A DNA stretch of 64,000 bases. It comes from Anadara kagoshimensis (taxonomy: Eukaryota; Mollusca; Bivalvia; Arcoida; Arcidae). The notes under the pieces were generated by a model that did not search any database, was not told the DNA's origin, and saw only the letters and a program-made list of their open reading frames with translations. Shown here one piece after another: positions 18,400-52,790 of this stretch. Position numbers and translations under genes: made by a program. Within the stretch, counting starts at the first letter, position 1, and each line of letters starts with the position of its first letter. The DNA is taken from positions 7,676,678 to 7,740,677 of the forward strand of contig CM037874.1 of NCBI GenBank assembly GCA_021292105.1. Reading direction: 5' to 3'.

Positions 18400-19671
18400 A
18401 TGGAAACAAGTGAATTTGTGTCGGACCCTGGGTATGCCAGTGAGTTATCAAATTCCTTGTACCAGCTACAACAAAGTGGGCATTTAATTGACACATTTAT
18501 TAAAACCAAGACAGGTGGTATAAATGCACATAAGATTGTGTTGTTTGCTAATGGTGGTCCATTTTTACAAGAACAAATCAGTAGAACTGTGTCATTAGAT
18601 ACAACTATGTGTAACATTGATCTGAGTCACGTCCTACATGAAGATGTTTTAGCCTTGATCACATATCTATACACTGGCAAATTAAAGATATCTTGTATTG
18701 AGTCAGACTCTTGCTTAAAACTTTTCCAGTTTTTGGAAATTGATTTAGAGAAATTAAAAGGTAACACCACTACAGCAGTTATGGAAAAGGGAGTTAGCAT
18801 TGAATCAGAGTGTGAAGATAAAGATAAATCGGGGGACAAAGATGACCAAATGGATTCCAACAAACTTAAGGATTCCCCTGAAAAATCTGACAGTGGTGAT
18901 TCTGAGAATGAACGTTTTGAAATAGAAATCTCCAATATGCAAGAAGGGGAAGTTGAGGAAAGAAGTGATTTTGTTGGACAAGTTCAAATTTTTGATGAAA
19001 CGACTGGAGAGTTGGTAAAACTTGAAGATGTAAAAATTAAACCTCCTGCTGTGAGGGGCAAGAAGAAAAGGCTAGCTTCAGCCAAGAAAAGGAAGAAGGA
19101 GCCAGTACCTTTAGCTGAGAAAAGAAAGAGAAAAGCAGTACCTACAATTGAGGAAACAAAGAAGATACAAGTAGAATCTGCAAACAAAAGAAAGAGCCCA
19201 AGAACAAAAAAGAAAGAAACGGTGAATTCAGTAGAGGATCAACAGAACAAAACATTAGAATCATCACCATCATCATCAGAGATAAATAAGGTTTTACTTG
19301 AAGAAGGTACAATTTGTTCAGAGTGTAGCCTAGATGTACGGGAATGTGTTTGTGAATTCTCGCCTAGCATGGACACAATGACATGTATGAGGTGTCACAT
19401 AAGATATACTACAAAGGAAGACTTTATCAAACACCGAGAAGAAAAACATTCCTTACGATGTGGTATGTGTGACTTTAAAATAACAAGAGGATCTAACTTA
19501 GTGAGCCATATGCTGGAGAAACATGGCATCTCGTCCAATCAGCTTGAGACTGGTTACACAGTAAAACAGGAAAAAACAACGGACAAACAGAAAGGGGATA
19601 ATGATGAAATTCCAGTATCTACAGAAACAAACAACACTCTAGTTACTATGGAAACAACAACCAATGAAAAG
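18400..19671 (+). CDS. BTB zinc-finger protein, common 5' coding exon
   Basis: Encodes 424 residues up to a strong donor, AAAAG|GTAAGT, exactly between codons. BTB/POZ dimerisation domain at about 15-119: INAHKIVLFANGG (41-53) and ITYLYTGKL (87-95) are its hallmarks. Residues 120-210 are acidic, and 211-275 are rich in KKRK blocks (nuclear targeting, possible DNA contact). Two C2H2 fingers sit at 329-350 (CMRC...H-x4-H) and 354-375 (CGMC...H-x4-H). I chose the ATG at 18400; an acceptor at 18338 implies an upstream noncoding exon. Without splicing, translation would stop after 12 more codons (19707), giving a BTB plus two-finger form. Likely a nuclear transcription regulator; it is the shared N-terminus for the cassettes downstream. 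Confidence 0.9.
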
Positions 19672-19823
19672 GTAAGTTCTTACATTATTAAAATTCTAAG
19701 TTGTTAAACTGATGGATAACATTTATATATTATGTGATGGCAGCCCTATTTCCTTATATGTAACATTTATGTAGGATTTTAATTTCTATGCTGGTAATCA
19801 AAACTTATTTTCTACAAATTCAA

Positions 19824-19977
19824 ATATGTTTCCATGCCTTGTACTTTTTGTAGCCAAAATGGTCATTACAGTAGCTACTGATTTTTGAGGAACACTTTAA
19901 AAAGTGACTATACTTTTGCAAAATTTAGAAATTTGGCTACTGTTAATTTCAATTTGTTGAAACCTAGAATTTCACAT
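19824..19977 (-). mobile_element. MITE (family C), copy 3, reversed
   Basis: ATGTTTCCATG at the left and GTTGAAACCTAG at the right, with the interior inverted relative to 7105 and 16299. Confidence 0.55.
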
Positions 19978-20231
19978 GTGTAACATTATTAATTTATCGA
20001 TTCCATTATTCATCAGAAATACTTTTTAAATTTAATGGGTTAGCACATGATACATAATTGGAATCTATCACTAATTAACAACTTTGATGTACCACTAAGT
20101 ATGGTGACTTAGTTTTTTAACCACACACAAATCACATTGTACACATACATACATTGTAGCCCCAAAATGGCAGAAGAATAGCAGATTCCTACCAGTATTT
20201 TATGGTATGGAAAAATGGACAGTGTCTACAA

Positions 20232-20990
20232 TATACTGTAAATCAGGAATTTAATGTGTCATGAAATTAATGCAAATTGCCGATTTTGCTGTAAGATGCG
20301 TATTTAAATTAATGCAATTTTTTAGAAATTCCAAAAATTACTTTAGCCATCTTTTATCTTGAAAAAATAACAAAAAAATGTTGAACTATTTTCTTATGAC
20401 TTGTTTATTATTCCATAAACATGTAATAACCATACACTTTCTGGTAATGTATTTATAAAAATAAACAGGGTATAGCTTACAAAGGGTACCGACGGTAAAT
20501 GTTGATGCAACTATTACAGGTTTTAAATCATTTAAAAGAATGGTTTCTGATTGTCAAAACAAAGAAACGGATAGAAGTTTGTTTAGAAACAAACAGTACG
20601 ACAAGTATTACACTTGGGGTTGGAGTAGAATCGGTACTACAAAGACATTCTTTTGGTGCATAAAAAGAATGTCCGTTTCACTGTAAATCATTGTGTTTTA
20701 AACATAGAAGTTTGTGGCGAAAAAAGTTATGTTTACGGAAATCACTTATATCGCTAAATTTTTGACAATTTATGAAGAGATTAATAATACTTTACATCAG
20801 AACCATTGAGAATTATCGTCAACTAACAGAGGAGAGGGGTTCTAATAAATGAACCACAATTACAACTTCCGGTTCAAGGGAGATAAATCAATTTACATTG
20901 ACCTTTGTTGGAAAAAATTAATGCAACAAGAAATTAATGCGATGAAACGGGCCTCGCATTTTTCGCATTAATTTCTTGATTTTCAGTATA
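20232..20990. mobile_element. Fold-back/MITE-like element, about 760 bp
   Basis: Left end TATACTGTAAATCAGGAATT and right end TTCTTGATTTTCAGTATA are inverted repeats. ATTAATGCAA-type words recur in both arms. No coding frame. Intronic in the BTB locus. Confidence 0.6.
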
Positions 20991-22330
20991 TCCTGATATT
21001 AGGGGTATTAAATAATTATCCAGGTTAAATATTATGATTTCATACAACCATAAAATGTACTTTCAACAAATAATATTTTACAATATGACTGTATCTCTCT
21101 TCGTTGAAGCATGCAGAAACAATTGTATTTCAATTCCTGTTAAAAGACAATTGGGGTTATGTCCCGTGACTTGGGTGCCATTTTCCTGCAAGATGATTCA
21201 TGCCCCCATTCAAAATGAATGGCTTTGCCCTTCATCAAACTTGGCACACACCACACTATCTTGCAATTACCTCTTGAAATACAATGAGCAGAATGTCATT
21301 TTTTAAAAAAAGAGTACCAAAGTGTTTCCTTCATAACTGTAGCTGTCTTCTATATATGACATCAATATCACCACCAGCTGCCCCAGAGGTGATTTTGTCA
21401 AGTCTGCCACTTAAGCAATGTTCAACCCCTTGTACCATTGATCCCAAAATAATAATTTTGTGCCAGAAAAATACTGTCTGCGGGTCTGTGTTTTTAATCT
21501 TAGCTGAGTTTTAGAAAGTTTAGAAAAAAGACCTATTTTTCATTGCCTTTGAGCCAAGGTGACCCCACTTTGGCACTAACTCAGCAACTGTATTTCAGGG
21601 ATGGACATTATTTTAAAAAGGTACTATTTGTTTAATCAAACTTTTTACAAAATGAATAATAGGCAAGTCCAATGACAGTGGATAATTCCTCAGTTCTAAG
21701 TGCTTTATAAAACCTTATCAAAGTTTTCACAACAACACAGCCATGTAACACACTCTTCTTGTTTTACAAAGTGGAGAACAAAGCTCACAGTGCTTAAGAA
21801 TACATTGTGTATTTCTATGGATGTCATGAACAACATGATTGTGTCAAATGCTGTTTTCAGCCAATATACTTATATAGTTGTCAAAATTTAACTTACTTTT
21901 AAGAAAAAATTCACATTACAAGTTTTGCCTGGATTCCACCACTGATAAATCATATGACATTGACTTGACCTGATTAAGGGTAACACTTCCTTTTGTATCC
22001 TAAACACAATTAAATGCTTTGTAAAATATTTGCATTTTACAAAAAATATTGACAATGGCTTGATTTTGTCATTTTAGGCTTTTTAAGTCAAAATTAAAAT
22101 TTTACTTGAGGGTATAAAATGGATGTCCTTCATATTAGTCAAGAATATCCATCTGCCATCTTTTCTACCAATGTCTACAGTTGGTACTGTGACAGCTTTT
22201 TACTTGCATGTGACAAAAAAGTTTCATTTTATATCTAACCATAAGGTTTGCTACAGCAATACTGATTGCTTGATGATTGCTTTCTCTATCTTACACTATT
22301 CAATTTAGGAAACATAAAGATAAAAAAGCT
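20991..22330. other. Intronic stretch without supported genes
   Basis: Several short open frames but no motif, splice match or repeat end. Part of the first intron of the BTB locus. Confidence 0.5.
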
Positions 22331-22620
22331 TAAAAACACTTGGGAAAGAAGTTGGACTAAAACCCACAAACTTCCTCCTTGAGGCTACTAAAACACATGG
22401 GAAAGAATTTGGACTAAAACCCACAAACTTCCTCCTTGAGGCTGCTAAAACACTTGGGAAAGAAGTTGGCCTAAAACCCACAAACTTCCTCCTTGAATCT
22501 ACTAAAAACACTTGGGAAAGAAGTTGGACTAAAACCTGCAAACTTCCTCCTTGAGGCTACTAAAAACACTTGGGAAAGAAGTGAGACTAAAACCCGCAAA
22601 CTTCCTCCTTGAGTCTACTT
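22331..22620. repeat. 58-bp minisatellite, five copies
   Basis: Unit contains CTTGGGAAAGAAGTTGGACT and CACAAACTTCCTCCTTGAGG. Copies differ at a few positions. Confidence 0.85.
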
Positions 22621-22910
22621 TTTCAGTAAGACTTTTTAGAGTCATTGACTGTCTAAATGACATCTTTCCCATGCTGTAACTCCGGGTAAAAGATTTGTAC
22701 TGCGTGGACACATCTTTAACCAATCCAGATCAAGTTTGAAAGTCTAAGAGTACAAATTTCCACCTTGAAGGAGATGACATCTGCACCCAGGACTATCTCT
22801 CAAAAGGGTAAATACTTTACCCCTGAGAGATGTTTAAGGATAAACAGATGGTGAAGAAGATTCTCCTTCATCTTCATCCAGGGTACTGAACTAGCCACCC
22901 TCATCTCCAG

Positions 22911-23095
22911 AGGAGCGGGTTGTCTTTGGGTCACTCATTGACTCAGAGAATAAGACTTCCTTCTCTGAGAAGAAGTCATCTTGAACTTCATCTGTCCCAG
23001 GCTGATCCTCCTCAGCCAGCTCCATCGACTCCTGTGCAGATACTGTTGAAGTTGGTGCAATGTCTTGGGACTCCAGAGCCGAGAGGTATGGTCAT
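22911..23095 (-). pseudogene. Possible orphan coding fragment
   Basis: On the minus strand this stretch reads about 60 residues without a stop, rich in Glu, Asp, Ser and Gln (for example ELAEEDQPGTDEVQDD), then ends in TAG at 22911-22913. Its base use is richer in G and C than its surroundings. It has no recognisable domain, start or splice site. It may be a fragment of a retrocopied exon; weak call. Confidence 0.2.
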
Positions 23096-23439
23096 TCATC
23101 ACATCCAGACTACACTTACTTAATCTTCTCTATGTTGCGCTTCTGGCTATAGATGATGCTAGTAAATCGACAGTCCATAAATTGAATATTGGTAAAATGT
23201 TTATTGAAATAAGAAATGCAATGCAGCGTCATAGAAGGATTGTATACAACATAATATCAAATATAATTATTTTAATGTACTGATTATATATATGTATAAT
23301 ATATGTATGTATATTAGAAATATGAAAATGAAAAATAAAACCTTATTGTTGTTTACTCCAAGAATATGTTTACACACTTATAATAAATAATTACATAAAT
23401 GAATTAATAATAGTAGTAATAATAATAAATTATTGTCCG

Positions 23440-23880
23440 AATCACTGTGTTTCTGACAGTGAGTTATGCTTTATTCCTATAGAAAATCCTATCAACTTGA
23501 ATAATGTTTGATATTGTTTACTTATACCTAGTTGTAACTGGGCATCTGTATGTATGTTATTGTCATAAAGTATTTCTGTAGAAAGTAAAATGTTGGCCCT
23601 ATGTGGTTTTACATGGCTGATATGGCGATGTTTACACAGAAATTGATAGCCTTGGTTACATTTTATGTTGTATGCATAGCAGTATCTGCCTTTTGCCTAT
23701 TTTTTTCCTAATGTTAATTAGCAACAATATTTTACTCTGTGCAGATTCTACGCTAATCACGTATGCACATGCATAGTTCTTGTTACAACAAGGTGTAAGT
23801 AAGTGAAAAATATCAATCTTTATTCAAGTTTTTTTCGATATCTTTGAAAAAAAAGCATAAACCACTGTCACAAACACTAT
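23440..23880. mobile_element. Worn fold-back element related to 60143-60630
   Basis: Shares TTGTCATAAAGTAT, CTGTAGAAAG and a C(T)TGTGCAGAT block in the same order as the better-kept palindrome in the RAD1 intron. Arms have diverged. It ends about 40 bp before the first transposase-like cassette. Confidence 0.5.
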
Positions 23881-23922
23881 GATATGAGCAGTAATTATTG
23901 TTATTATTATTATTATTTTCAG

Positions 23923-25149
23923 AAAATAAACACAGCCAAATACAGACAATGGTCACCAGCAGACATGTTAAATGCCATAAAAATCATTAGAGAGCGAAAC
24001 ATCTCTGTAAGGAAGGCAGCAAAGTTGTATAATGTCCCCCTTACAACTCTCCGTGATAGAGTGGATGGGCGACATTCAGTGGAAACTATAAAATCTGGAC
24101 CTGAACCCTTATTGAGTCAAGAGGAAGAAGCTAAATTAGTAAATTACATTTCTTATATGGCTTCCCTTGGTTATGGATTTAGTAGAACACAAGTTTTGGA
24201 ATTTGCTACAGACCTTGCTGTGAGTTCAGGAAAGAGAGACAGGAATCAACCATTGTCTATGTTCTGGTTCTATGAATTTTTGGGTCGCTGGCCAGAATTG
24301 CCTGTGGTAAAACCCAGAACATCAGCAGCTGTTAGAGAACAAAGTGTTGCACCAGATATTATTGACAAATATTTTGAAGAACTTAAATCCACTTTGGATA
24401 AATATAATTTTCTTGACAAACCTCAGTCCATTTACAACCTAGACAAAAAAGAAATCTCCACACAGCATCATCCCCCAAATATTGTAGCTAAGCATGGTGT
24501 TTGTTCTCAATCAGTCACCTCTCCTAGAGGAGCCAATATGACAATTATTGGGTGTGGAAATGCTCTCGGTCAAAAGATACCACCATACTATATATTTGCC
24601 GGCAAACGGATGAGACAAGAGTTGTTAGATGACTGTTTGCCTGGTACTGCAGGCACAGTAACAGATAATGGTTTGTCTAACTCATTCGTCTTTGAACTCT
24701 ATCTTTGTGACCATTTTCAGCAACATGTACATGCCTCGCCAGACAATCCTGTATTACTGCTGTTTGATGGTCATACTAGTCACATCACGCTTTCAGTGAT
24801 TGAGTGGGCCAAGGATATGGGAATAATCTTATTCGTGCTGCCACCTCATAATTCACACATACAACAGATTTTAGATATGGGATGTCTTGGTCCCTTGGAA
24901 AGTATTTACAACAAAGAATGCTCCGCTTTCCTTATAAACCACCCAGGCCAGACTATATCGAGGATAAATGTTTCTCAGATTTTATCTAAAGCTTACATCC
25001 ATACTCTTTCACCTGAAAATCTTTGCTCGGCGTTTAGGAAGTTAGGGATCTATCCCTTCGATCCCTTAGCCTTTAACATTTCAAACATAGCTCCATCAAC
25101 GATTATTGAAGTGGATACTGATAATTCTTCTGAAAACACAGCTTGTTAA
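23923..25149 (+). CDS. Alternative 3' exon 1: psq-type HTH plus pogo-like DDE transposase domain
   Basis: 408 residues from acceptor TTATTTTCAG|AAA to TAA. It opens in phase 0 with the BTB exon and needs no start codon. Residues 5-50 form a pipsqueak/pogo helix-turn-helix (NISVRKAAKLYNVPLTTLRD at 26-45). About 65-125 is the second HTH region (LSQEEEAKLV, GYGFSRTQV, RWPEL). From 165 on is a DDE_1 domain: Asp174 in YNLDKKEIS, Asp282 in LLLFDGHTSH, Asp318 in QQILDMG. All three acids are present, but the usual DETG loop after the first Asp is altered to DKKE. About 40% of aligned residues look shared with the 43.1-kb exon. Predicted isoform: BTB + two fingers + transposase, about 832 residues. 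An ATG 13 codons upstream runs through the TAT-rich pyrimidine tract and is unlikely. A free transposon copy is the alternative; no inverted ends were found around it. Confidence 0.8.
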   Translation, partial: KINTAKYRQWSPADMLNAIKIIRERNISVRKAAKLYNVPLTTLRDRVDGRHSVETIKSGPEPLLSQEEEAKLVNYISYMASLGYGFSRTQVLEFATDLAVSSGKRDRNQPLSMFWFYEFLGRWPELPVVKPRTSAAVREQSVAPDIIDKYFEELKSTLDKYNFLDKPQSIYNLDKKEISTQHHPPNIVAKHGVCSQSVTSPRGANMTIIGCGNALGQKIPPYYIFAGKRMRQELLDDCLPGTAGTVTDNGLSNSFVFELYLCDHFQQHVHASPDNPVLLLFDGHTSHITLSVIEWAKDMGIILFVLPPHNSHIQQILDMGCLGPLESIYNKECSAFLINHPGQTISRINVSQILSKAYIHTLSPENLCSAFRKLGIYPFDPLAFNISNIAPSTIIEVDTDNSSENTAC

Positions 25150-26145
25150 CATTTCAAACATAGCTCCATCAACAATTATTGAAGTGGATACTGATAATTC
25201 TTCTGAAAACACAGCTTGTTAACATTTCAAACAAAGCTCCATCAACGATTATTGAAGTGGATACTGATAATTCTTCTGAAAACACAGCTTCTTAACATTT
25301 CAAACATAGCTCCATCAACGATTATTGAAGTGGATATTGATAATTCTTCTGAAAACACAGCTTGTTAACATTTCAAACATAGCTCCATCAACGATTATTG
25401 AAGTGGATATTGATAATTCTTCTGAAAACACAGCTTGTTAACATTTCAAACATAGCTCCATCAACGATTATTGAATTGGATACTGATAATTCTTCTGAAA
25501 ACACAGCTTCCTAACATTTCAAACATAGCTCCATCAACAATTATTGAAGTGGATATTGATAATTCTTCTGAAAACACAGCTTGTTAACATTTTAAACATA
25601 GCTCCATCAACGATTATTGAAGTGGATATTGATAATTCTTCTGAAAACACAGCTTGTTAACATTTCAAACAAAGCTCCATCAACGATTATTGAAGTGGAT
25701 ACTGATAATTCTTCTGAAAACACAGCTTCCTAACATTTCAAACATAGCTCCATCAACGATTATTGAAGTGGATATTGATAATTCTTCTGAAAACACAGCT
25801 TGTTAACATTTCAAACATAGCTCCATCAACGATTATTGAAGTGGATATTGATAATTCTTCTGAAAACACAGCTTGTTAACATTTCAAACATAGCTCCATC
25901 AACGATTATTGAATTGGATACTGATAATTCTTCTGAAAACACAGCTTCCTAACATTTCAAACATAGCTCCATCAACGATTATTGAAGTGGATAATGATAA
26001 TTCTTCTGAAAACACAGCTTGTTAACATTTCAAACATAGCTCCATCAACGATTATTGAAGTGAATACTGATAATTCTTCTGAAAACACAGCTTCTTAACA
26101 TTTCAAACATAGCTCCATCAACGATTATTGAAGTGGATACTGATA
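25074..26145. repeat. 73-bp minisatellite derived from the end of the transposase-like exon
   Basis: About 14.7 copies. The first copy is the last 24 codons and stop of the 23923-25149 exon (encoding NISNIAPSTIIEVDTD...), and later copies repeat it with its TAA/TTAAC junction. Because 73 is not a multiple of three, later copies are out of frame and lie in the 3' UTR or intron. Confidence 0.9.
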
Positions 26146-26269
26146 AACTGTAGTTTATACCCAGTAAAATGTTCCAGCTAATACTAGTAATACTAATTGA
26201 GTCTTTTTAGTAAATGTTAAAGAAGAAGAAAAATGTCTCAAAAGTAGGCTTCAAGTATAGGAAAATATG

Positions 26270-27904: not shown

Positions 27905-27987
27905 TAACTATTTATAGAGGCAGAGTGGAGTTTTACTGCCACTTTTAATGGTTCCCTTGGGTGGCCTTTATAGACAGGTTTAACTGT
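27905..27987 (+). mobile_element. Half copy of MITE family A
   Basis: GGTTCCCTTGGGTGGCCTTT then AGACAGGTTTAACTGT; matches the right half of the element at 31272. Confidence 0.5.
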
Positions 27988-29395: not shown

Positions 29396-29399
29396 TATA

Positions 29400-32512: not shown

Positions 32513-33091
32513 GTTACTAGTATGGATGACTATATAAGTTCAACTGAAGGGGCTATTTTAGACCTTTCTGAACAAGAAGTGCAGCCATCTCAATTACCAC
32601 ATTTTCCTTTATTGTCTACCTCCAAACCTAAGCAAAGAGAAAAGTCAATATCTATTTGTGACATTTGTGGTAAATATGTCAATAAATCCTCCATTAAAAA
32701 ACATATTAAAATGGTTCATAAAATGTCAGGGTCATTTATCTGCAGTGTATGTAGCAAGTGTTTTTACGGACCGCAGCAGCTAAATGATCATATGAACATT
32801 CATTATAACAGACAGCCATATGTCTGTCCTCTTAATTGTGGCCATAAATATTCTACAAAAACCGGCTGGCAGAAACATTACAAACACTGTCGAGAAGGAA
32901 ATCCACGATTTAAATGTTTAATTTGTAAAACATCGTACAGTTGTAGGGCATCATTTAGGGACCACAACCGGAGTCAACATGAAAATCAACATTATCAGTG
33001 TGCCTGTGGTAATTTGTTTAAATGGCGTAGTCATCTCAAGTTCCATAGAAGAAAATGTCTGGATTACAACCAACAACAAAACAATGCTTGA
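32513..33091 (+). CDS. Alternative 3' exon 2: five-finger C2H2 cassette
   Basis: 192 residues from acceptor TTTAATTTCAG|GTT to TGA, phase 0 with the BTB exon (VTSMDDY...). Residues 1-45 are an acidic, Pro/Ser-rich lead. Five zinc-binding modules follow: CDIC (49), CSVC (77), CPLNC with a C-x3-C spacing and HYKHC end (105), CLIC (135), and a C-x-C finger CACGNLF (163) ending H-x4-C. The in-exon ATG at codon 4 could allow a BTB-free product, but the splice fit favours the fusion. AATAAATAAA lies about 285 bp after the stop. Predicted isoform: 616 residues. The DNA target is unknown. Confidence 0.85.
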   Translation, partial: VTSMDDYISSTEGAILDLSEQEVQPSQLPHFPLLSTSKPKQREKSISICDICGKYVNKSSIKKHIKMVHKMSGSFICSVCSKCFYGPQQLNDHMNIHYNRQPYVCPLNCGHKYSTKTGWQKHYKHCREGNPRFKCLICKTSYSCRASFRDHNRSQHENQHYQCACGNLFKWRSHLKFHRRKCLDYNQQQNNA

Positions 33092-34708: not shown

Positions 34709-35866
34709 ATGGAAGAAGGTGATAAAATTAATCACAAGGAAAAGGCAACATAAGACAAGTTTATCTGCAGCATTTGTGGAAAAACCACCAAATATAAAAG
34801 TAATTTGACACGACATTTGGAGTCGCACCATGCCGTCGAGAATCACATACTTGTAATGAATGTGGGAAGAAATTTGCTATGAAGGAACAACTTAAGCAGC
34901 ATGTAAAGAGACAGCATAAAATACATGATCCTCAAATATGTGATCTCTGTGGAAAAAAGCTTCCATCAGCGCTATGTTTATCTAAACATATAAGGAATGT
35001 TCACAAAGAAAAGGGCTATATTTGTAGCATTTGTGGTGCAAAGTTTAAGGACATGTATGCATTAAATAGACATTCCAGTAAACACAACCCTACTATAGAG
35101 CAATGCCCCAAGTGTAATAAATTAATGAAACATGAGTCTCATATTAAACGATGCCAGAAGTACCCAACATATACTTGGTAAATGTGATGCCAGAAGTACC
35201 CAACGTATACTTGGTAAATGTGATGCCAGAAGTACCCAACATACACTTGGTAAATGTGATGCCAGAAGTACCCAACATACACTTGGTAAATGTGATGCCA
35301 GAAGTACCCAACATATACTTGGTAAATGTGATGCCAGAAGTACCCAACATACACTTGGTAAATGTGATGCCAGAAGTACCCAACATATACTTGGTAAATG
35401 TGATGCCAGAAGTACCCAACATATACTTGGTAAATGTGATGCCAGAAGTACCCAACACACACTTGGTAAATGTGATGCCAGAAGTACCCAACATATACTT
35501 GGTAAATGTGATGCCAGAAGTACCCAACATATACTTGGTAAATGTGATGCCAAAAGTACCCAACATATACTTGGTAAATGTGATGCCAAAAGTACCCAAC
35601 ATATACTTGGTAAATGTGATGCCAGAAGTACCCAACATACACTTGGTAAATGTGATGCCAGAAGTACCCAACATATACTTGGTAAATGTGATGCCAGAAG
35701 TACCCAACATATACTTGGTAAATGTGATGCCAGAAGTACCCAACATATACTTGGTAAATGTGATGTATGCGACAAATTGTTTGTTTCCGAAATTTACTTA
35801 AAACGACGTACCAAAAATAAACATAGTGAGCAGACAAAATACAAATGTGGTTGTGGTATTACTTGA
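34709..35866 (+). pseudogene. Decayed alternative 3' zinc-finger exon
   Basis: After acceptor TATTTTTCAG|ATG the frame is phase 0 but meets TAA at 34751-34753, 14 codons in. Finger coding then continues (CSIC...H-x4-H), changes frame near 34845, and resumes as CNEC, CDLC, CSIC and CPKC fingers up to about 35150. A 36-bp minisatellite follows. Beyond it, in another frame, come CDVCDKLF and a C-x-C start (CGCG), then a stop at 35864-35866. At least three breaks separate it from a working cassette. It keeps the layout of its neighbours, so it is best read as a dying member of the array. A use from a later start (frame 34879-35181) cannot be excluded. Confidence 0.7.
35148..35765. repeat. 36-bp minisatellite inside the decayed finger exon, 17 copies
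   Basis: Unit GATGCCAGAAGTACCCAACA + TATACTTGGTAAATGT. In one frame it reads the 12-residue unit DARSTQHILGKC. Variation is limited to a few sites (ATATAC/ATACAC, CAGAAG/CAAAAG). The multiple-of-three length keeps all frames open, explaining long frames on both strands. Confidence 0.95.
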
Positions 35867-37471: not shown

Positions 37472-38155
37472 ATGAACGTGTTAGGTGTGGTAGAAGTAAA
37501 TTTTAAATGTGGAATATGCAGCAAGATATATCATTCAAAAGGGAGCTTAAAGAGATACATGCTGATGCACACAGATGACAAACCATTTATTTGTGCATGT
37601 GGCAAGCAGTTTCGGGAGAAGTATCTTTTACTACGCCATGAAAAAATACACGACACACAAAAACCAAGCTACATATGTGATAAATGTGGAAAAACATACA
37701 GAAGTAAAGGGGCACTTTTTGACCATGATAAATTTTATCACAGGAAAAATACAGTACAATGTGAAATCTGTAACAAAAACTTCAGAAATTTGTTCTTTCT
37801 TAAAAGACATGAAAATGTTCACACAAATGCAAAGGAGTTATGTGGAATATGTGGTGGATTATTCAAGAATTTACCAGACCATCTTAAAGTCTGTGGTAAA
37901 AACCATGAACATATCGCTTTTTGTGATATGTGTGACAAGAGCTTTTTGTCAAAAAAATATCTCCGCCAGCACAAAGACACAGTTCATTCAATAGGAAAAT
38001 ACAGTTGTGAGATTTGTGGTAAACAACTGAAATATTTACAATCATTAAAATCTCACAAAAAGTCTTGTGATGCCAAATCTCACAAAAAGTCTTGTGATGC
38101 CACTCAACAAGCAGCATTCATCCTCGAAGGGACCTTGGGGCCATTGATCCTTTAG
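37472..38155 (+). CDS. Alternative 3' exon 4: seven-finger C2H2 cassette
   Basis: 227 residues from acceptor GTTTTTACAG|ATG to TAG, phase 0 with the BTB exon. Modules in order: CGIC (first His replaced by Tyr in LKRYMLMH), C-x-C finger CACGKQF...H-x3-H, CDKC, CEIC, CGICGGLF (short, ends C), CDMC and CEIC ending HKKSC. An 11-residue piece around SHKKSCDA is duplicated near the end (38052-38102), and the tail then runs to IL. The linkers are not the TGEKP type. The first codon after the acceptor is ATG, so an independent start is possible. The C-x-C finger also appears in the 32.5-kb cassette and at the end of the decayed one, supporting common descent. Confidence 0.85.
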   Translation: MNVLGVVEVNFKCGICSKIYHSKGSLKRYMLMHTDDKPFICACGKQFREKYLLLRHEKIHDTQKPSYICDKCGKTYRSKGALFDHDKFYHRKNTVQCEICNKNFRNLFFLKRHENVHTNAKELCGICGGLFKNLPDHLKVCGKNHEHIAFCDMCDKSFLSKKYLRQHKDTVHSIGKYSCEICGKQLKYLQSLKSHKKSCDAKSHKKSCDATQQAAFILEGTLGPLIL

Positions 38156-40352: not shown

Positions 40353-40355
<3 letters not shown>

Positions 40356-42244: not shown

Positions 42245-42445
42245 AAATGGTCTAAAGAGCCGGCAACTAGGCTTAAATCCCATTTAATACAGATCATAGT
42301 ATGAAAAATTTGTCAGTTTGCTTGCCAAAGGTCAATGCTTTTCTCTGGGGCTCTGGTTTTCTCCGCCATCCTAGACATGACCCCTTTGATATATAAGTTA
42401 AATAATCTTGACTAGGGTGTAAAACACCATTCCTTCACTCTACTC
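42245..42445 (+). mobile_element. Worn SINE
   Basis: Worn tRNA-like head (GGCAACTAGGCTTAAATCCC), then TTGCTTGCCAAAGGTCAATG and the shared tail TAATCTTGACTAGGGTGTAA + AACACCATTCC. Confidence 0.5.
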
Positions 42446-43083: not shown

Positions 43084-44328
43084 CTTCCAATCCGACATGA
43101 CAGGAGATATAGACAGTATTCCCATATTGACTTATCTAATGCATATAATGCTGTTAATGTTGATGGGCTTTCTGTTTATTCTGCATCAAGGATTTACGGT
43201 GTACCAGAACAGACACTACGAGATCGGGTTAAAGGCTTAATTGACATCGACTGTGTAACTACAGGAAGGGCACCAGTGCTTTCAATTGAGGAAGAAGAAA
43301 AATTAGTCAACCATATAGCAGCGATGGCTAAATTAGGATATAGTTATACTCGCCAGGAACTCACCGACATAGCATCAGATTATGCTGTTCAACTACAAAA
43401 ACGGTCTGTTAATAATCCTCTAACATCACATTGGTTTCAAAGTTTCCGAAATAGATGGCCAAAAATTAAAGATGTCCAAACAGGAACATTGGAGTCTGAA
43501 AGTGCCAGATGTGCAACCATTATACATGTTGAAAATTGTTTTGAAAAACTTGATGAGATTTTATCAAAGTATGGTTTAAAAGAGAATCCCCATCTTATAT
43601 TTAACATTAATGAATCTGGTTTCATTCCAAATAAAAAATTACCTTTTGTAATGACCTCAGCAGAATTTGATATCAAACAACAGACAGGAACTCCACCAAA
43701 ATCTAAAATAGTAACAGTAATTGGGGCCGGCAGTGCTTCTGGAGTAGCTATTCCACCATATTTTGTCTTTCCAGGTGCCAAAATGATGCCCAGTTTGTTA
43801 AAAAATGGAGTTAGTGGGACAGTTTCAAAGACTGGATGGTCAAATATAGATACATTTAGACAGTATATGAAGACACATTTTATCAAATATATTCCGAATC
43901 GGGAACCAGATCAATATGCCTTAATCCTATTAGATGGACATTCATCTCATATTGCTGTTGATGTTATGGAATGGGCAACAGAGAACAGGATACTCATTTT
44001 CATTGTACCTATTAATACTTCGGACATACTTCAACCACTTGATGTTTCTTGCTTTCCTCCACTTTATGTTTACTTTAATCATTTATGCCTGGACTCCACC
44101 AGAACTGATATGTGTGGGTTAATGTGCAAAGCCTATTCCAAAGCTATTTGCACAGAAAATTTGTTGTCCGGATTCCGAAAATGTGGGATTTATCCATTCA
44201 ATAAAGATGCAAACCTGTCATCTTTAGCACCGGTAACTGTATCCATTGATGATATCGCTCATGAAGAAGAAGTTGTCAGTGAAAACAAAGATTCTGTAGA
44301 AAGCAATAAAAATGTCATTGATTATTAA
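43084..44328 (+). CDS. Alternative 3' exon 5: psq-type HTH plus DDE domain with altered first acid
   Basis: 414 residues from acceptor TTATTTTTTTAG|CTT to TAA, phase 0 with the BTB exon. The HTH starts only eight residues after the splice and has no ATG before it. Residues 8-52 are a pipsqueak-type HTH (RRYRQYSHID...ASRIYGVPEQTLRDRVKG). 66-130 is the second HTH region (LSIEEEEKLV, GYSYTRQEL, RWPKI). The DDE_1 domain follows: first site FNINESGF with Asn176 in place of Asp, Asp284 in LLDGHSSHI, Asp320 in LQPLDVS. Loss of the first metal-binding acid argues against cutting activity. With the long open frame this fits a domesticated DNA-binding module fused to BTB, about 838 residues. The acidic tail (380-414) is unlike the other transposase exon. 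Confidence 0.85.
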   Translation, partial: LPIRHDRRYRQYSHIDLSNAYNAVNVDGLSVYSASRIYGVPEQTLRDRVKGLIDIDCVTTGRAPVLSIEEEEKLVNHIAAMAKLGYSYTRQELTDIASDYAVQLQKRSVNNPLTSHWFQSFRNRWPKIKDVQTGTLESESARCATIIHVENCFEKLDEILSKYGLKENPHLIFNINESGFIPNKKLPFVMTSAEFDIKQQTGTPPKSKIVTVIGAGSASGVAIPPYFVFPGAKMMPSLLKNGVSGTVSKTGWSNIDTFRQYMKTHFIKYIPNREPDQYALILLDGHSSHIAVDVMEWATENRILIFIVPINTSDILQPLDVSCFPPLYVYFNHLCLDSTRTDMCGLMCKAYSKAICTENLLSGFRKCGIYPFNKDANLSSLAPVTVSIDDIAHEEEVVSENKDSVESNKNVIDY

Positions 44329-44790: not shown

Positions 44791-45234
44791 AAACAGTTTC
44801 AAACTATGTAAGATGTAATAACTGATGATAAAGCAAATAATAAAATCAGTAATAAAGTTTGTTATCAGATGTCAGGTTCAGTTAATATAGGAATGAGACT
44901 AATTTTTCTTTTTGTTATGCGAATTATTTTACCTGTGCAAATATCTTTTATACTTCCATAACAAAATGAAAAATTAATTTCATTTCTTATAATTCAATTT
45001 TTAAAAAAATTTTAACAACAAATCAACAATTTAAACAACAATATAGCCGTAGCGAGTAAAAAATAGAAATGCTATGGCGTAGTAATTCAAATGCCTCTGT
45101 ACGTCGTCCACAATGAGATAACATCACCAAGAGCCAGTCCATTCATGCAAACATAACAGAAAAATTTTACCAATCAAAATGTTTTTAACAAATGAGAATT
45201 GAATTAATGTTATACATGTATATACAAAACAAAA

Positions 45235-45247
45235 CATATATATATAT

Positions 45248-45283
<36 letters not shown>
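45235..45283. repeat. (TA)n microsatellite
   Basis: TA dinucleotides with a short TTTATATG break. Confidence 0.9.
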
Positions 45284-45287
<4 letters not shown>

Positions 45288-45710
45288 GTCAAGAATATTT
45301 CACTTTTATCGTGATGTCACCAATTTGTAAGACATTTTGATTATTACGGTAAATAAATAAAGTTTTAACAGATGTAGTTTTAACAGAGAAGAAATAGCTT
45401 AACTATTTATTGTCTTGTTTGAAAAGTGCAGCACATAGCACACAAAGCAGTCATGACATGATGTAGTCATTGTAGAAAGAGAGAGAAGAGTAATGTTGTC
45501 TTACATCCAATCAAGATTCCTTTATTGATATTGAGACGGCTGATGATGGAGTGCTAAGAGTAAACTGTAGGCCTTCAGCAAACAAACTGACAAACTATCT
45601 CACACTATGATCTGTTCCTGATGGGATTCTAACCTATTTAGGTGGTGAGAGGCAATGTTATCGCCTGTGATCCATAAACATACACTTAGACCACTAAGGT
45701 CTCCTGCAGT
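45284..45710 (-). mobile_element. SINE pieces, reversed
   Basis: CTGTCAAGAATATTTCACTT at 45286 is the reverse of the shared tail. At 45600-45708 the minus strand reads GACCTTAGTGGTCTAAGTGT and GGTTAGAATCCCATC, a tRNA-like A and B box. The two may be one element stretched by other sequence. Confidence 0.45.
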
Positions 45711-45924
45711 CAATATAAACTAAATTGGTGCAATCATTTTTGGTAGAAATGAATTTAGATCTACCTTTTCCAAAACTATAGGCCATAGTGAATTGACATT
45801 TCTACAGATACATCATGAAACTACCCCCAAAATTGCCTCAGATGATAATATAGCACATTACATGTGGTTCAAAACTATAGAAGGGATTGTATATAAATGA
45901 GGATCATTGAGAAGGATAATTAGA

Positions 45925-46205
45925 TACTGTAAACATATTTAATTTCGTGTGTATTTATTTTTGCGATATAGGAAATTTTGACAGGTAGTTTGGAGTTTTT
46001 GAAATATGCACTATATATAACACAGTAAGCCTAATATGATTTTCACTCTGCAATAATTTTTGTGGAAAACAATTGACTGCAAAATATGCAAAATTAAATA
46101 TGTTTACATGGTATTGTGAAATCAGTAATTAAATTTGTTTACATGGTATTGTGAAATCAGTAATTAAATTTGTTTACATGGTATTGTGAAATCAGTAATT
46201 TTTAT
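45925..46205. mobile_element. Small MITE with a triplicated right end
   Basis: ACTGTAAACATATTTAATTT at 45926 is mirrored by AAATTAAATATGTTTACATG at 46089. The right end is then repeated about every 35 bp three times (TTGTTTACATGGTATTGTGA). Confidence 0.55.
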
Positions 46206-46695
46206 AGAGTCCCAGTTGTTGTTCTCATGACTGACTTTAAACAAAGACCACAATTCAGGAATTTATCACCCCACGAAAAGGTAAGAGCCACAAAAAATGG
46301 ACACCATGAAAAAAATGAGTTTACAGTACATGTATTTGAACCTTTGAACTTATTAATTGTTTCATGGTCAAAGGTCAAGGTCAGAACAAGGTTATCAAAG
46401 TTTTTATTGCTACAATAAAAAAATTTTGCTAGCTATTATGGAATTTTCCTGTTTTATTTTACAACTTCATATGTATATTCGTTTATTACGTGAAGCAATA
46501 TAATTATATAATGTATATTCCATTTACTGCTGATTTATCAAGTTAAATTTAGACTTGCAATCTAAGGATCTCTTGTTATGGTATATAGTTGTAGTAAAAC
46601 CTGACTAAACCAAGCACCTTGAGAACTAAAGATTTGGTTTGGATTAGATATGTACTTAATTTATCATGCAATATCAATGGTATGACCTATGAAAT

Positions 46696-46856
46696 ACAGT
46701 CAAACCTGTTTATAAAGACCAACCAAGGGACCATGTAAACATGGCCTTTATATACAGATTCAAATAACATAAATAAAGAACAATTGGGATACAATTCTGG
46801 CTTTTATAAGTAGATGGTCCTTATATAGAGGTGGCCTTTAAGACAGGTTGAAGTGT
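46696..46856 (+). mobile_element. MITE (family A), copy 5
   Basis: ACAGTCAAACCTGTTTATAA at left and TTAAGACAGGTTGAAGTGT at right, with GGGATACAATTCTGGC shared with copy 1. Confidence 0.65.
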
Positions 46857-47187
46857 TCTGTAGTACTGTTAGTTTAGACAGGGCTTCAGTTTTACTCTGG
46901 TCCAAAATAATAAACATCCAAGGTACATTTAGCTTAATTTTGCTTCATTACAGTTCAGCATATACATGTCAAATATGTTTACCACTCTATCAAGTACTGA
47001 AGATCAGACTGGCCAAATCTTTGAGTCTGATCATATCAACATAACTGCTTTTTATTAAAGATAACTTGAATAGTCAAAACATAGCCTCAAAGGTCAAATG
47101 AAAGCCCAAAAAGTATCATTAGAAAACAGATTTTATAGCACTTCCAAACAATTTTTGTTTATTTTTTTATATCATTCTTTTTACAAG

Positions 47188-47976
47188 CACTGGGGGACAT
47201 TTATGAAGAAACGAAAGATTTCTGGTGGTCATCATTATGGTGAACCTGGTTCTAGTACAGAGGAGAAAGGTATTGGTCGTCCATTTTGTGACATTTCCTC
47301 CGGTGACAAAGAGGCCAATATCAAAACTGTCATGTACATGTACAAAGAAATGGACACAAACAGGAATGAAATGTCTGATGATGATCCTGGAAATGTAGAA
47401 ACAGATGAAAGAACTGGTACAGAAAGTGAAGGTCAAACTAAACAGGAACAGGAAATAGAATATCCATATTGTGATGGAGTATTTCAGTCAAAACAAGCTC
47501 TTCATAGGCATTCATCTTCCAGTGAATTTTTGTGTAATTACTGTGCTAAAATTTATCACTCCAAAAGAGGATTAACAAGACATATGAGATTCCATACAAA
47601 AACCATGTTTAAGTGTTCAATTTGTGGCAAAGAATTTTATGAGAATGTCGATTTAAACTCCCATGTACGATCTGTACACACAGGAGAATGTCCATTTACA
47701 TGTTCTTATTGTGGAAAGACATTCGCTGGGAAAAAACAATACCGAGTCCATTTAAAGATTCACGAAGGAACACAGTTAAAATATAACTGCAGTTATTGTG
47801 ATAAAGTATATAGTAAAAAACAACATCTTGAAGGTCACATCAACACATACCATCTAAAAATCAGACCTTTCTCTTGTCATTATTGTTTGAAGACATTTGC
47901 CGACAAATCAAATTTGAATAAGCATCTGTCACATTGCTCGTTTGAAAAAAATATGAAAGCTTTTAATGATTTATAA
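47188..47976 (+). CDS. Alternative 3' exon 6: C2H2 cassette with five good fingers
   Basis: 262 residues from acceptor ATTCTTTTTACAAG|CAC to TAA, phase 0 with the BTB exon (HWGTFMKKRK...). Residues 1-90 are low in complexity and acidic. A broken finger (YPYCDGVF, first Cys absent) leads into CNYC, CSIC, CSYC, CSYC and CHYC fingers, the last ending HLSHC. One TGECPF linker resembles the classical TGEKP type. An in-exon ATG at codon 6 exists, but upstream codons in the intron read through the pyrimidine tract, so the splice start is preferred. AATAAA occurs about 620 bp after the stop (48597). Confidence 0.85.
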   Translation, partial: HWGTFMKKRKISGGHHYGEPGSSTEEKGIGRPFCDISSGDKEANIKTVMYMYKEMDTNRNEMSDDDPGNVETDERTGTESEGQTKQEQEIEYPYCDGVFQSKQALHRHSSSSEFLCNYCAKIYHSKRGLTRHMRFHTKTMFKCSICGKEFYENVDLNSHVRSVHTGECPFTCSYCGKTFAGKKQYRVHLKIHEGTQLKYNCSYCDKVYSKKQHLEGHINTYHLKIRPFSCHYCLKTFADKSNLNKHLSHCSFEKNMKAFNDL

Positions 47977-48066
47977 GAAGTTATATCAGTTAAAAGTAAA
48001 ATGCTTGTATTCTGAGTGAATGAAAATTACCATAGTTACCTTAATACCTATTGTGAAAATATATAC

Positions 48067-48330
48067 ATGTACATGTTTACCGGTATTTAGATAATATCAT
48101 GGACAGAAATAAGGGCGCAGGGTGTTCCTGACCCCCGAAATCTCTCCTCTGGTTCCACCACTAAATACCGGTAAACATGTATATACATATGAATGCTAGA
48201 AAGGGTGGGGTTGAAGAGCTAGCACTTGCTCAAATTGCAGGATTTTCTGCTACCTTTCAAATATTTTCTGGGGGAGCATGCCCCAGACCCCTACTCGTCA
48301 TCCCCACCCTTTCTAACATTCATATGTCTG
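48067..48330. repeat. Two adjacent inverted repeats
   Basis: TACATGTTTACCGGTATTTA (about 48069) pairs with TAAATACCGGTAAACATGTA (48162). ATGAATGCTAGAAAGGGTGG (48189) pairs with CCCACCCTTTCTAACATTCAT (48303 region). Looks like a nested fold-back insertion. Confidence 0.7.
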
Positions 48331-48504
48331 CCACTGTTTATTGCATAATTTGTCCCAAAGGTCCAGTCTGAATGCTTTAATTTTAAAAAAAGATTACCGG
48401 TAAATGCTGAAATCTTTTTTTTATTTTGCCTTTTTGAGACTAGGTGGGGTATCTTTGAAATGAATATAAATAGTTAGTGAACTTTAATCCTGTTGTAGGG
48501 CAAA

Positions 48505-48610
48505 GTACAAAGGAAGATATATAAGGAAAGACTAAGATAAATTTTGATGAAGAGTGACAACTTGGTATAAGTGGAATATTCTTGACTTAAACATGTAAAT
48601 AAAGTTGATT
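48505..48610 (+). mobile_element. SINE tail fragment
   Basis: ACTTGGTATAAGTGGAATAT + TCTTGACTTAAACATGTAAA matches the shared tail. Confidence 0.4.
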
Positions 48611-49019
48611 GTAAATCGGTTTGAAAAAAATTTGTAAACCATTGGTTCTTCTAGCGGTAGTTGAGTAGTATAAGAGTTTAAACTTTGACCTAGCATGATA
48701 ATGAGGCATATTAGTAACTTATTTGGTTCATTTGAAATATTAGTATGTAACTCTATGATTATATACATGTACATGCATTTTCAGTCTTTAGAATGCTTTG
48801 TGAGTTTGATTTATCAGAAATTGGACTTTATTGGTCATCTAACCTAACTTAGTTTTTAAACTATGTTTTTTGAATGATCAGAGGCCATGCGTCATTGTTC
48901 TTGTATAGTTTTACAAGCTACACTAGGTTAAGATTGAACTGTATACAGTTATAGAGTCTAGTTAAAAAACAAACTACTGTAATATGAGTGATATGAGCTT
49001 GTATGCCACAAATTAGTTT

Positions 49020-49215
49020 TGTTTTTGGACAACTTTGATATGCAACAAGTTAAACCTTTTTTTTTGGACAACTTTGATATGCAACAAGTTAAACCTTTTG
49101 TTTTTGGACAACTTTGATGTGCCACAAGTTCAATCTTTTTGTTTTTGGACAACTTTAATATGCCACAAGTTAAACCTTTTGTTTTTTGACAATTTTGATA
49201 TGCCACAAGTTGAAC
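49020..49215. repeat. 40-bp minisatellite, five copies
   Basis: Unit TTTTTGGACAACTTTGATAT + GCMACAAGTTAAACC; starts at 49027, 49066, 49106, 49147 and 49187. Confidence 0.9.
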
Positions 49216-49614
49216 AGAAAGTAGTTTCTATATATGAATTATTACAATGTCTAGTATTGTTTGTTTGATGTATTTTTTTTTTTTTTTTTGATACTGGTAT
49301 GTACACAATGTTTTATATAGATAAGTGTATTTGTTGAATATTTAATGCTATAGTAGAACCTTAATAAACTGGAGTATAAACAAGATTTTGGAAATGGCAA
49401 TTCTCATGGATTTGCGAATTAATTGTTGACATTGCAAGTGAGTCAAACTACTCGGACACTTAATAGCAACATGTAACATTCATGCTTTCTGGCACTTTAT
49501 TTGTTATTGTTATAACTACATGAATATTGAAAGAGACTGTTTCTATCAATGCCATTAGATTGTGAACAACCTTTACTTGCAATGTTTTTGTTTTCTGCAC
49601 TTGGCTAATGATAT

Positions 49615-50640
49615 TTACAATTAGTATGAATGCCATCGATCACTTCAGCGATGTCAGTTGCGTTATGAAAACATGTATGATGCAATTTGTTTGGCTGTTC
49701 CATTGATTGGACATACATGTATGATGCCATTTGTTTGGATGTTCCATTGATTGGATACACTTTAATGGTGCCACTTTTTGGCTGTTTCATTGATTGGACA
49801 TACATTGATGATGCCATTTGAATAGCTGTTCCATTGATTGTACATAAATGTTAAGTGCCATTTGTTTGAATGTTCTATTGATTGGACAAACATGTATGAT
49901 GCAATTTTTTTGGATGTTCCATTGATTGGACATACATGTATGATGCCATTTGTTTGGCTGTTCCATCGATTGGACATACATGGATGATGCCATTTGTTGG
50001 CTGTTCTATTGATTGTACTTACATGTATGATGCCATTTGTTTGGATGCTCTATTGATTGGACATACATTTATGATGCCATTTGTTTTACTGTTCCATTGA
50101 TTGAACATACATGTATGATGCCATTTGTATGGCTGTTCCATTGATTGGACATACATGTATGATGCCATTTGTATGACTGTTCCATTGATTGGACATACAT
50201 GGATGATGCCATTTGTGTTTCACTGATTGTACAGTATTGAATGTTAATGATGCCATTTGTTTGGTTGTTCCATTGATTGGACATACATGTATGATGCCAT
50301 TTGTATGGCTGTTCCATTGATTGGACATACATGTATGATGCCATTTGTATGACTGTTCCATTGATTGGACATACATGGATGATGCCATTTGTGTTTCACT
50401 GATTGTACATAAATGTTAATGATGCCATTTTTTTGGTTGTTCCATTGATTGGACATACATGTATGATGTCATTTGTTTGGATGTTCCATTGATTGGATAT
50501 ATTTAATGATGCCATTTTTGGCTTGGTTCATTGATTGGACATACATTGATGATGTCATTTGTTTGGCTGTTCCATTGATTGTACATATATATATGGTGCC
50601 ATTTGTTTGGCTGTTTCATTGAATATACACATGTCCTAAG
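49615..50640. repeat. 44-bp minisatellite, about 23 copies with higher-order structure
   Basis: Unit GATGCCATTTGTTTGGCTGT + TCCATTGATTGGACATACAT. A larger block (about 50085-50250) recurs at about 50265-50430 with the same odd member (GTGTTTCACTGATTGTAC), showing a segmental duplication inside the array. Confidence 0.9.
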
Positions 50641-50934
50641 CAACAGCAATTTGAATTTGATTTTGTTTGAGGATTGAAAAAGCAAAATAATATAATCATT
50701 AAACTTAAGCTGCCATGCAAAGCAAATTAAATCATAAAATGCATTAGAGCATTGTTTAGTTTGCTTTCCATTGCCGTTTTAGTTATATCACTATGAATGC
50801 CTTTTCTAAGCCGTTGAAAGTTATAAAAATTGCCATCTTTAATTAAACTGTAGTATGTAAAATATACATGGCTTACAAAAATAAATTGATCATCAAACAA
50901 TGATTATATATTTTATTTATTTAGAACAAGTTCT

Positions 50935-51230
50935 GAAATGTATCTTAGTTATCAGGCTTAGTTATCAAGACCCTCAAAAAGTGTTATGGTCATCATCACA
51001 ATATTGCTGATAAGTATGATGTCTCTGTATCCCAAATTATCCTGGATTTACATGCATTGACGTCCATGATAACTCCATGTTCATTTCATTCTCAATTTTG
51101 AGTACACATGTATTGGGTGTAGCTAGCTAAACAGGAGGTGCTTACCCATGCAGAACCTAATTTCCTTGGTGAAACTCAGAAAGTTGAGGCATTTAACTCC
51201 CTTTGCTTTGGGATTTTGATTAAGACGGAT
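50935..51230 (+). repeat. Dispersed repeat, copy related to 55195-55400
   Basis: Shares GATAAGTATGATGTCTCTGT, CTCAATTTTGAGTACA and GGGTGTAGCTAGCTAAACAG with the block upstream of RAD1. Class unknown. Confidence 0.55.
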
Positions 51231-52173
51231 TGGCATGTTTTGTTTTGGATAATTATATATAACAATACCCCATTACTAGGATGATGTTAGATGTGCAGTG
51301 TGGCAAATTTAAGAACCATGACTACTAACAATTAGTGTATTGTTAATGTATTTAAATTCTGCATCTTTTATCTATGACCTTGCAAAAGTAACCAAAAGTA
51401 GGTCACATGGTTACATGATTGTTGAATCAAAAATAGAAGAAATGAATTTTTACTTTAGTAACAGCCAATTTAACCAAGAACACTACACAATACATGTAAA
51501 GAAAAGAACGTAAAGAAGTCACTGATTATAGAACACCAGACTTTGGATAAGCACAAGTTGAGTTAATACCCAGTGGAGTGGAACTTCAAATATATATATA
51601 TATATATTGAAGGTGGTTACTTCACAATAGAAGACAAAAACATTGTTCTGAATTATAGCTAAATTTCATAAACAATGGGCGCCATCAATGTATCGGATGA
51701 CACCCACAAACTGAATTCAGAAATTGTTGTACTTCTACTTCTGTGGAATGTCAGACAAGTAACAAGATGTTAAAGCAAAAGTAACATGATTATTTTAATT
51801 TCATATAATTTACTTTCTTTGCAAGATGTGTCACAGTGAAATTAAAAGTAAACAAATACAATTAAATGTCACTTCTTGTGACATGCAGTATAACATGGGT
51901 GAATTTCAATAAACACAATGATCGAACCAGTATTTATGACTAAATGTATCAACACAATCCATGGTCATTTTTTATAAGTAAGGACAGTGTCCTAAATTAG
52001 GCCATATTTCTAACCAGCTGAATATCAAAACTTTAATGTTTTTAATAAGAATGTACAAAATACTTTTGTATTACAGGTTACAAGTTTGGACCTTCACACT
52101 AGCTTAAATTTCAAACCCAGGGTATCAGGAGACATTTAAAATTAAAATGAACTAGATTTTATTTATTTTGTAG
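51231..52173. other. Intronic stretch without supported genes
   Basis: A (TA)n tract at about 51592-51606; nothing else supported before the last cassette. Confidence 0.5.
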
Positions 52174-52790
52174 ACAACACTGAAGCCTAAAGAAAAAGGA
52201 AAGGGCAAGAAAAGATACTTATGTACGGTGTGTACATATTCAACTTTGTGCTGTAGTAATTTGAAAAGACATATGAAAACACACCAACCTAAAGTCAAAT
52301 ATGAAGAACAGGACCAGTTTGTGTGTGATCAGTGTGGTAAACAGTTTGTGAGCCGCTATGGTTTAAATCTACATAATAGAACTATTCACAAAAAAACTTT
52401 TAAATTTGTTTGTGAGACTTGTGGAAAAGGTTTCAATCAGAAATTTCAGTTCACTAATCACTGCAGGAAGCATATCAGATTAACCATCAAATTCTGTCCG
52501 ATTTGTAAAGAGAAATGCTCTTCCCATGATTCATTAATAGAACATTTTGAGTCGTGTCATCAAAAAACTGATTTGGATCCCGACCAAGAACAATTTAGAT
52601 GTAAATTTTGTCTGACACTCTGTGCGTCAAAAAAGCCCTTTATAGTCATGTGAAGGGTAAACATGAGCCGCCAACGTACTTTTGTAAACACTGTGACAGT
52701 AAATACCGATGGAGGTCATCACTTAAAGCTCATTTAAAATTTGCACATAACTTACAAAATCTACCATACAACATTGATGTTGCATCGTAG
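52174..52790 (+). CDS. Alternative 3' exon 7: six-finger C2H2 cassette with one frame break
   Basis: Acceptor TTTATTTTGTAG|ACA gives phase 0 with the BTB exon (TTLKPKEKGKGKK...). Fingers: CTVC, CDQC, CETC, CPIC in frame. The fifth starts CKFC and then slips: the frame as read ends in TGA at 52651-52653. The other frame continues the same finger (SDTLCVKKALYSHVKGKH) and a sixth (CKHC...H-x4-H) to TAG at 52788-52790. One base is missing near 52608-52616. Either this copy is newly damaged (product of 159 residues with four fingers) or the base was lost in sequencing or assembly. The rest looks constrained, so the break is recent or an artefact. Confidence 0.75.

Follow-up and report, generated by a model that had tools for sequence, protein, structure and literature searches.

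We describe a locus of the bivalve mollusc Anadara kagoshimensis in which a single exon encoding a BTB domain is followed, on the same strand, by a series of candidate 3′ exons for DNA-binding domains, here called cassettes. The locus lies in a 64,000-nucleotide stretch of contig CM037874.1 (assembly GCA_021292105.1, forward-strand positions 7,676,678 to 7,740,677), which we call the window. Six cassettes are live and one, at 34709, is dead; of the live 3′ exons, four are C2H2 zinc-finger exons and two are pogo-type transposase exons. We consider it probable that the BTB gene makes isoforms in which the constant exon is joined to one of the six live 3′ exons, and that the pogo cassettes arose through two transposon insertions followed by takeover of the transposon's splice acceptor. 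Support for this plan comes from the reading phases and the acceptors, from the clustering on one strand, from constraint seen when two copies of the locus are compared, and from a gene model of the blood cockle Tegillarca granosa that runs from a BTB domain into a pogo domain. A preliminary description of this DNA had proposed one BTB exon with alternative 3′ exons giving up to six or seven isoforms; the same features favor its plan, with splicing predicted from the DNA, and six predicted isoforms remain after loss of the dead cassette.

Organization of the locus

The constant exon opens with a short 5′ untranslated region behind a TTTTGCAG acceptor at 18340 (placed by eye), is translated from the ATG at 18400 for 424 residues, and ends between codons, in phase 0, at AAG/GTAAGT (19671/19672), just as previously described. 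Pfam recognizes its BTB domain (PF00651, E 3.9e-9), and its donor matches 9/9 positions of a consensus that we chose ourselves, a score reached by 2 of the 3632 GTs in the window. Downstream lie the seven proposed cassettes, all on the + strand as claimed, each directly preceded by AG, the last of them 32 kb away from the donor at 19671:

18340..19671, + strand: constant exon, with BTB domain, C2H2-like motifs and phase-0 donor
23923..25149, + strand: cassette 1, pogo-type transposase (HTH_psq and DDE_1), live; its end lies within a minisatellite
32513..33091, + strand: cassette 2, C2H2 zinc fingers, live
34709..35865, + strand: cassette 3, C2H2, dead (stop, frameshift, 36-bp minisatellite)
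37472..38155, + strand: cassette 4, C2H2 zinc fingers, live
43084..44328, + strand: cassette 5, pogo-type transposase (HTH_psq and DDE_1), frame live
47188..47976, + strand: cassette 6, C2H2 zinc fingers, live; acceptor weak
52174..52790, + strand: cassette 7, C2H2 zinc fingers, with a one-base deletion here and intact in the second copy

The locus thus presents a shared 5′ BTB exon and then several 3′ DNA-binding exons in one phase, with the acceptor at 47188 weak. We scanned 164 kb (the window with 20 kb to its left and 80 kb to its right) for open reading frames (ORFs) of at least 50 amino acids, using one C2H2 regular expression and a pogo profile, and found C2H2 or pogo ORFs confined to the BTB exon and the seven cassettes, except for one minus-strand ORF at 75634 that encodes a single finger.

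By a scoring scheme with untrained weights, the claimed acceptor is the top-scoring AG of its open frame, in phase 0, for five of the seven cassettes (23923, 32513, 37472, 43084 and 52174). The earlier claim that all seven open in phase 0 fails at 34709, which is not open, and is less secure at 47188, which ranks 353 of 3384 and is outscored by other AGs in its frame, although Tegillarca homology to cassette 6 begins two codons past this acceptor. The accompanying argument, that agreement in phase would arise by chance one time in three for each cassette, is weaker than stated: the AGs were picked after looking, and free pogo relatives share the phase-0 acceptor, so that the pogo cassettes probably brought their own phase with them.

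The cassettes had all been taken for simple DNA-binding exons, a view we revise for those at 23923 and 43084, which are pogo transposase derivatives. Cassettes 1 and 5 contain HTH_psq (Pfam E 4.5e-8 and 9.5e-5, respectively) and DDE_1 (3.8e-14 and 2.6e-14), are 37% identical, and place their last two Asp residues 35 residues apart, a spacing among those listed for pogo families (PMC7386202). Cassette 1 retains all three Asp, the first within an altered motif, NLDKKE. Cassette 5 has Asn at the first catalytic position, where Asp stands in 11 of the 12 other rows with data in the pogo tree presented below and Glu in the remaining one (L027).

The finger cassettes resemble one another in sequence comparison and, judging from this generic C2H2 similarity, may derive from duplication. 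Cassette 3 has a TAA at codon 15 in addition to its frameshift and minisatellite, and no open frame leads from its acceptor to its domain. Each cassette was said to have its own stop; cassette 7 departs from this in the window, where the one-base deletion causes an early stop and the remainder to 52790 lies in another frame, whereas the second copy is intact over 205 amino acids and the Tegillarca protein P0007 is open across the deletion site. Compared with its close relative P0006, cassette 6 has two in-frame deletions that disrupt its first finger (47440-47530), a finger that Tegillarca also possesses. Cassettes 1, 3 and 4 each have a minisatellite that expanded from their coding end (25073-26146, 35150-35765 and 38048-38102), and the stop codon of cassette 1 lies at the first repeat junction of its minisatellite (73-bp unit, 14.7 copies). 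Structure prediction for two models gave a mean predicted local distance difference test score of 45.2 and 34.1, a quality too poor for use, and searches of solved structures returned weak matches alone (LCoR at E 0.0057; CTCF fingers as well as BTB proteins no better than 0.014).

A second copy of the locus and constraint

In the genome assembly (1.115 Gb in 36 contigs), the locus occurs a second time on the same contig, some 457 kb farther downstream (C18:8133001-8203000, L031-L037; the window begins at C18:7676678). This copy contains all seven cassettes in order, keeps the acceptor and phase of the six live ones, and shares the stop and frameshift of cassette 3. Large indels separate the copies, with 1.9 kb missing from copy 2 and 3.1 kb missing from the window. 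Copy 2 may be a haplotype left unpurged in the assembly or may stem from recent duplication; either would produce these differences, and in both cases dead cassette 3 serves as an internal control. In a BTB search of the same genome, matches elsewhere often came in equal-scoring pairs, as would be expected if haplotypes were left unpurged or duplications were numerous (150 of 300 candidates scored); the window's own BTB exon was not among the results, so this search is uninformative on paralogues.

We counted differences between the copies in each part of the locus. The introns, with tandem repeats masked, differ at 155 of 17624 positions (0.88%), and dead cassette 3 at 11 of 438, a count that takes in a few alignment-edge differences beside the acceptor. 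The live cassettes differ at 1/1150 (cassette 1), 4/576 (cassette 2), 2/681 (cassette 4), 2/1242 (cassette 5), 5/786 (cassette 6) and 5/614 plus the deletion (cassette 7), and the BTB exon at 10/1272. Pooled, the six live cassettes differ at 19 of 5049 positions (0.38%), fewer than the introns (p=1.6e-4) and than dead cassette 3 (p=1e-5), and cassettes 1 (p=0.0011) and 5 (p=0.0031) fall below the intron rate singly. Silent changes are also overrepresented: the BTB exon with the six live cassettes carries 14 silent and 15 replacement changes (ratio of replacement to silent rates, pN/pS, 0.27; p=0.0007), the six live cassettes 10 and 9 (pN/pS 0.23, p=0.0017), and the four finger cassettes 8 and 8 (pN/pS 0.23, p=0.0045).

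Related proteins in Tegillarca

The closest named proteins come from the blood cockle Tegillarca, in keeping with the earlier guess that the DNA is from a mollusc. A query combining the BTB exon and cassette 5 returned four proteins, among them T. granosa KUTeg_010167 (P0001), which is 69% identical across the BTB exon and in which the sequence ..TTNEK runs straight into a 141-residue psq-pogo half at the matching junction. This half is 54% identical to cassette 5, with which it aligns without gaps from the junction to the domain, and 36% identical to cassette 1. Cassette 6 as query returned 16 proteins, comprising P0006 (87%), P0007 and 14 generic finger proteins. P0007 is Tegillarca KUTeg_010168 and contains orthologues of cassettes 6 (56%) and 7 (82%) in the same order; P0001 and P0007 bear consecutive locus tags and lie on contigs of equal size.

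Origin of the pogo cassettes

We compared the pogo cassettes with free transposons of the same genome. Cassette 5 has at least 108 matches there, and beyond the two locus copies its nearest relatives among the matches listed are 67%, 52% and 49% identical. The pairs L024/L025 (99.5% identical) and L029/L030 (99.4%) are located on different contigs and carry terminal inverted repeats (TIRs). A phase-0 acceptor stands just before psq in four of the five relatives examined (L021, L022, L024, L028 and L029); the exception is L021, where the acceptor is almost the same as in cassette 5 and a frameshift comes after it. Five of the eight loci scanned (L021, L024, L027, L029 and L030) possess a five-codon phase-0 start exon, which reads MRFKQ, MRQKQ or MRFKP ahead of GTAAGT, while L023 and L028 gave unlike candidates alone and L022 none; by eye, L025 shows this kind of start exon too. 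The transposase gene of the free transposon begins with this start exon, continues through a phase-0 intron and ends in a single large exon, which has no start codon ahead of its DNA-binding domain. A roughly 240-bp element elsewhere (L040:7010-7251) has inverted ends resembling the L024 TIRs and is a possible miniature inverted-repeat transposable element of that family.

At the locus, homology between cassette 5 and L021 begins in the acceptor tract (43065), with none upstream. A search with exact strings found no TIRs next to either pogo cassette. Nor was the transposon start exon found upstream of cassette 1 or cassette 5: the sole in-frame candidate (20261-20290) is unlike it, and the best matches near the two cassettes have 7-9 mismatches, no better than shuffles (mean 7.6). 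With neither start exon nor TIRs alongside, the BTB exon would supply the start. Inverted repeats flanking cassette 5 (42265-42346 and 45557-45639) were considered as transposon ends and rejected, since their arms belong to dispersed repeats that recur at other places within the 164 kb. A tree of 14 pogo rows places cassette 1 with L029 (84/84) and L028 (100/99); cassette 5 groups with L021 and P0004 (96/97). A sister grouping of cassettes 1 and 5 is rejected by the approximately unbiased test (p-AU 3.2e-6), and they therefore probably represent two separate captures.

These results suggest a mechanism in which two pogo-psq transposons inserted separately behind the BTB exon. The phase-0 BTB donor would have taken over the transposon's phase-0 acceptor, with the large exon acting as a ready-made terminal exon; the transposon start exon and ends would have been lost afterwards, and the large exon retained as a DNA-binding end piece. 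In the resulting proteins, the BTB domain would dimerize or recruit cofactors and the chosen end exon would determine the DNA target. The five-codon start exon and phase-0 intron suggest why this transposon family would be easily captured.

Alternative readings

Several results weigh against isoforms built on a common BTB exon. Taken singly, cassettes 2 (p=0.82), 4 (0.13), 6 (0.69) and 7 (1.0) and the BTB exon (0.88) change no more slowly than introns, and cassettes 1 and 5 together carry 2 silent changes and 1 replacement (p=0.12), too few for the test. Poly(A) hexamers are not enriched behind the cassette stops, and for cassettes 1 and 4 the first 1500 nt contain no hexamer. Cassette 1 forms a long branch in the tree. 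The pogo half of KUTeg_010167 is placed outside the group of cassette 5, L021 and P0004 (p-AU 0.075 when held with cassette 5) and on this placement is not clearly a cassette 5 orthologue; if it is not, it would represent a third capture, in Tegillarca. In-frame ATGs stand past the acceptor in cassettes 2, 4 and 6 and before it in cassette 1, and given these ATGs the four cassettes could have translation starts of their own. The preliminary description had proposed looking in related bivalves for the same order, which Tegillarca displays in part: going by locus tags, BTB-pogo is followed by cassettes 6 and 7 in order, but these two are modelled as a separate gene, KUTeg_010168, which has a start of its own and a splice inside cassette 6. 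This separate model either counts against a common exon or reflects the annotation method, and the Tegillarca gene models may be ab initio.

The separate Tegillarca gene and the ATGs of cassettes 2, 4 and 6 would suit a reading in which the cassettes are small genes with their own promoters and starts that merely adjoin the BTB gene. We regard this as unlikely, as cassettes 5 and 7 open right at the acceptor with no in-frame ATG ahead of the domain, the cassettes share one phase and one strand, KUTeg_010167 fuses BTB to a pogo half, and the transposon start exon was looked for ahead of cassettes 1 and 5 and not found. We likewise find it improbable that the finger cassettes alone are exons and the pogo cassettes unused transposon remnants in introns. 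The abundance of pogo matches in the genome, the end of cassette 1 in a minisatellite with no poly(A) hexamer nearby, and the non-significant silent/replacement test for cassettes 1 and 5 would agree with remnants; however, both pogo frames are intact in both copies and fall below the intron rate, dead cassette 3 displays the local pattern of decay, and the Tegillarca model joins BTB to pogo.

With isoforms from a constant BTB exon as the preferred reading, we lean slightly towards regarding the locus as a standing recruitment site with repeated pogo captures (two here and possibly a third in Tegillarca), in which the dead cassette represents turnover and transposases are swappable modules beside fingers. 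A comparison here could take in free relatives of the donor transposons, the captured exons, one dead cassette and also a related genus, making the steps of capture via splicing testable, and one locus may show how jumping genes turn into exchangeable regulator parts.

Comparison with known systems

The insect proteins Pipsqueak and Bab carry psq motifs, and the present locus is like them in having a BTB domain together with a psq helix-turn-helix; it differs in that psq here accompanies DDE within a candidate alternative exon and in that its BTB, judged by motif, is not TTK-type, whereas theirs is TTK-type (PMC11426971). The Drosophila genes lola and mod(mdg4) have a common BTB 5′ part and many alternative 3′ ends, mostly DNA-binding (PMC4667647, PMC11426971), and the preliminary description was right to cite them for a plan in which alternative DNA-binding 3′ ends share a BTB 5′ part. 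Their end domains are C2H2 or FLYWCH, and here pogo transposases occur as well. Their BTB domains are TTK-type with an FxLRWN motif (PMC11426971). We found this motif in the BTB exon in neither strict nor relaxed form, which leaves it outside the arthropod TTK group (lola, mod(mdg4), pipsqueak and bab); its absence would weaken kinship with lola and leave lola-like working untouched. A search with BTB residues 1-130 matched 2 of 161 candidates, KUTeg_010167 and P0005, the latter from a close relative of the window's species; P0005 continues into the intron and is therefore genomic. On these two results an old version shared with lola, one of two origins offered by the preliminary description, is not supported.

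The insect loci use trans-splicing, and ours is known from its DNA. Joining of the constant exon and cassettes in trans from separate transcripts, as known for insect loci of the same plan (PMC4667647), would suit cassettes lying as far as 32 kb from the donor. We give it little probability and presume splicing in cis, as the cassettes are on the same strand, their order is the same in Tegillarca for the parts seen, and no observation requires trans joining. If the preferred reading is true, the locus represents a lola-like BTB switch outside arthropods and transposon capture within an alternative-exon array.

In tetrapods, 106 host-transposase fusions are reported to have formed via this splicing route (PMC8290160, citing Cosby et al. 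2021), with a host domain spliced to a transposase through splice sites already in the transposon. By the features of such fusions, the acceptor here is of transposon origin (free relatives have phase-0 acceptors), the pogo cassettes are immobile, confined to a single locus and kept by selection (no exact TIRs, slower change than introns, and for cassette 5 a next relative at 67% among the matches listed), and host domain and transposase would form one protein, with junction and phase that fit and a Tegillarca gene model with the join. The mollusc locus differs in that two captured exons would be alternatives beside four finger cassettes and relatives bearing the start exon persist in the genome.

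Another mollusc example is the octopus, whose CENPB factors associated with BTB (PMC10027918) likewise pair this domain with DNA-binding proteins derived from pogo, so the combination is not new as a domain pair; they represent domain association alone, and the main text of that report never uses the word "alternative" and has "splic-" a single time, within a reference. A vertebrate BTB/POZ-integrase also combines BTB with a mobile-element domain, an N-terminal retroviral-type integrase zinc-binding domain, in a single protein (PMC12062965), in contrast to the alternative 3′ transposase exons here. Literature searches with limited coverage of subscription journals found no report of an alternative-exon array that includes transposase exons.

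Neighboring sequences

Minus-strand ORFs at 10268-15632, which lie upstream of the BTB gene and oppose it in direction, include by eye pieces of what we take to be a HAD-type phosphatase-like gene. Plus-strand ORFs at 13615-15094, within this stretch, are presumably a degraded non-long-terminal-repeat reverse transcriptase, also by eye.

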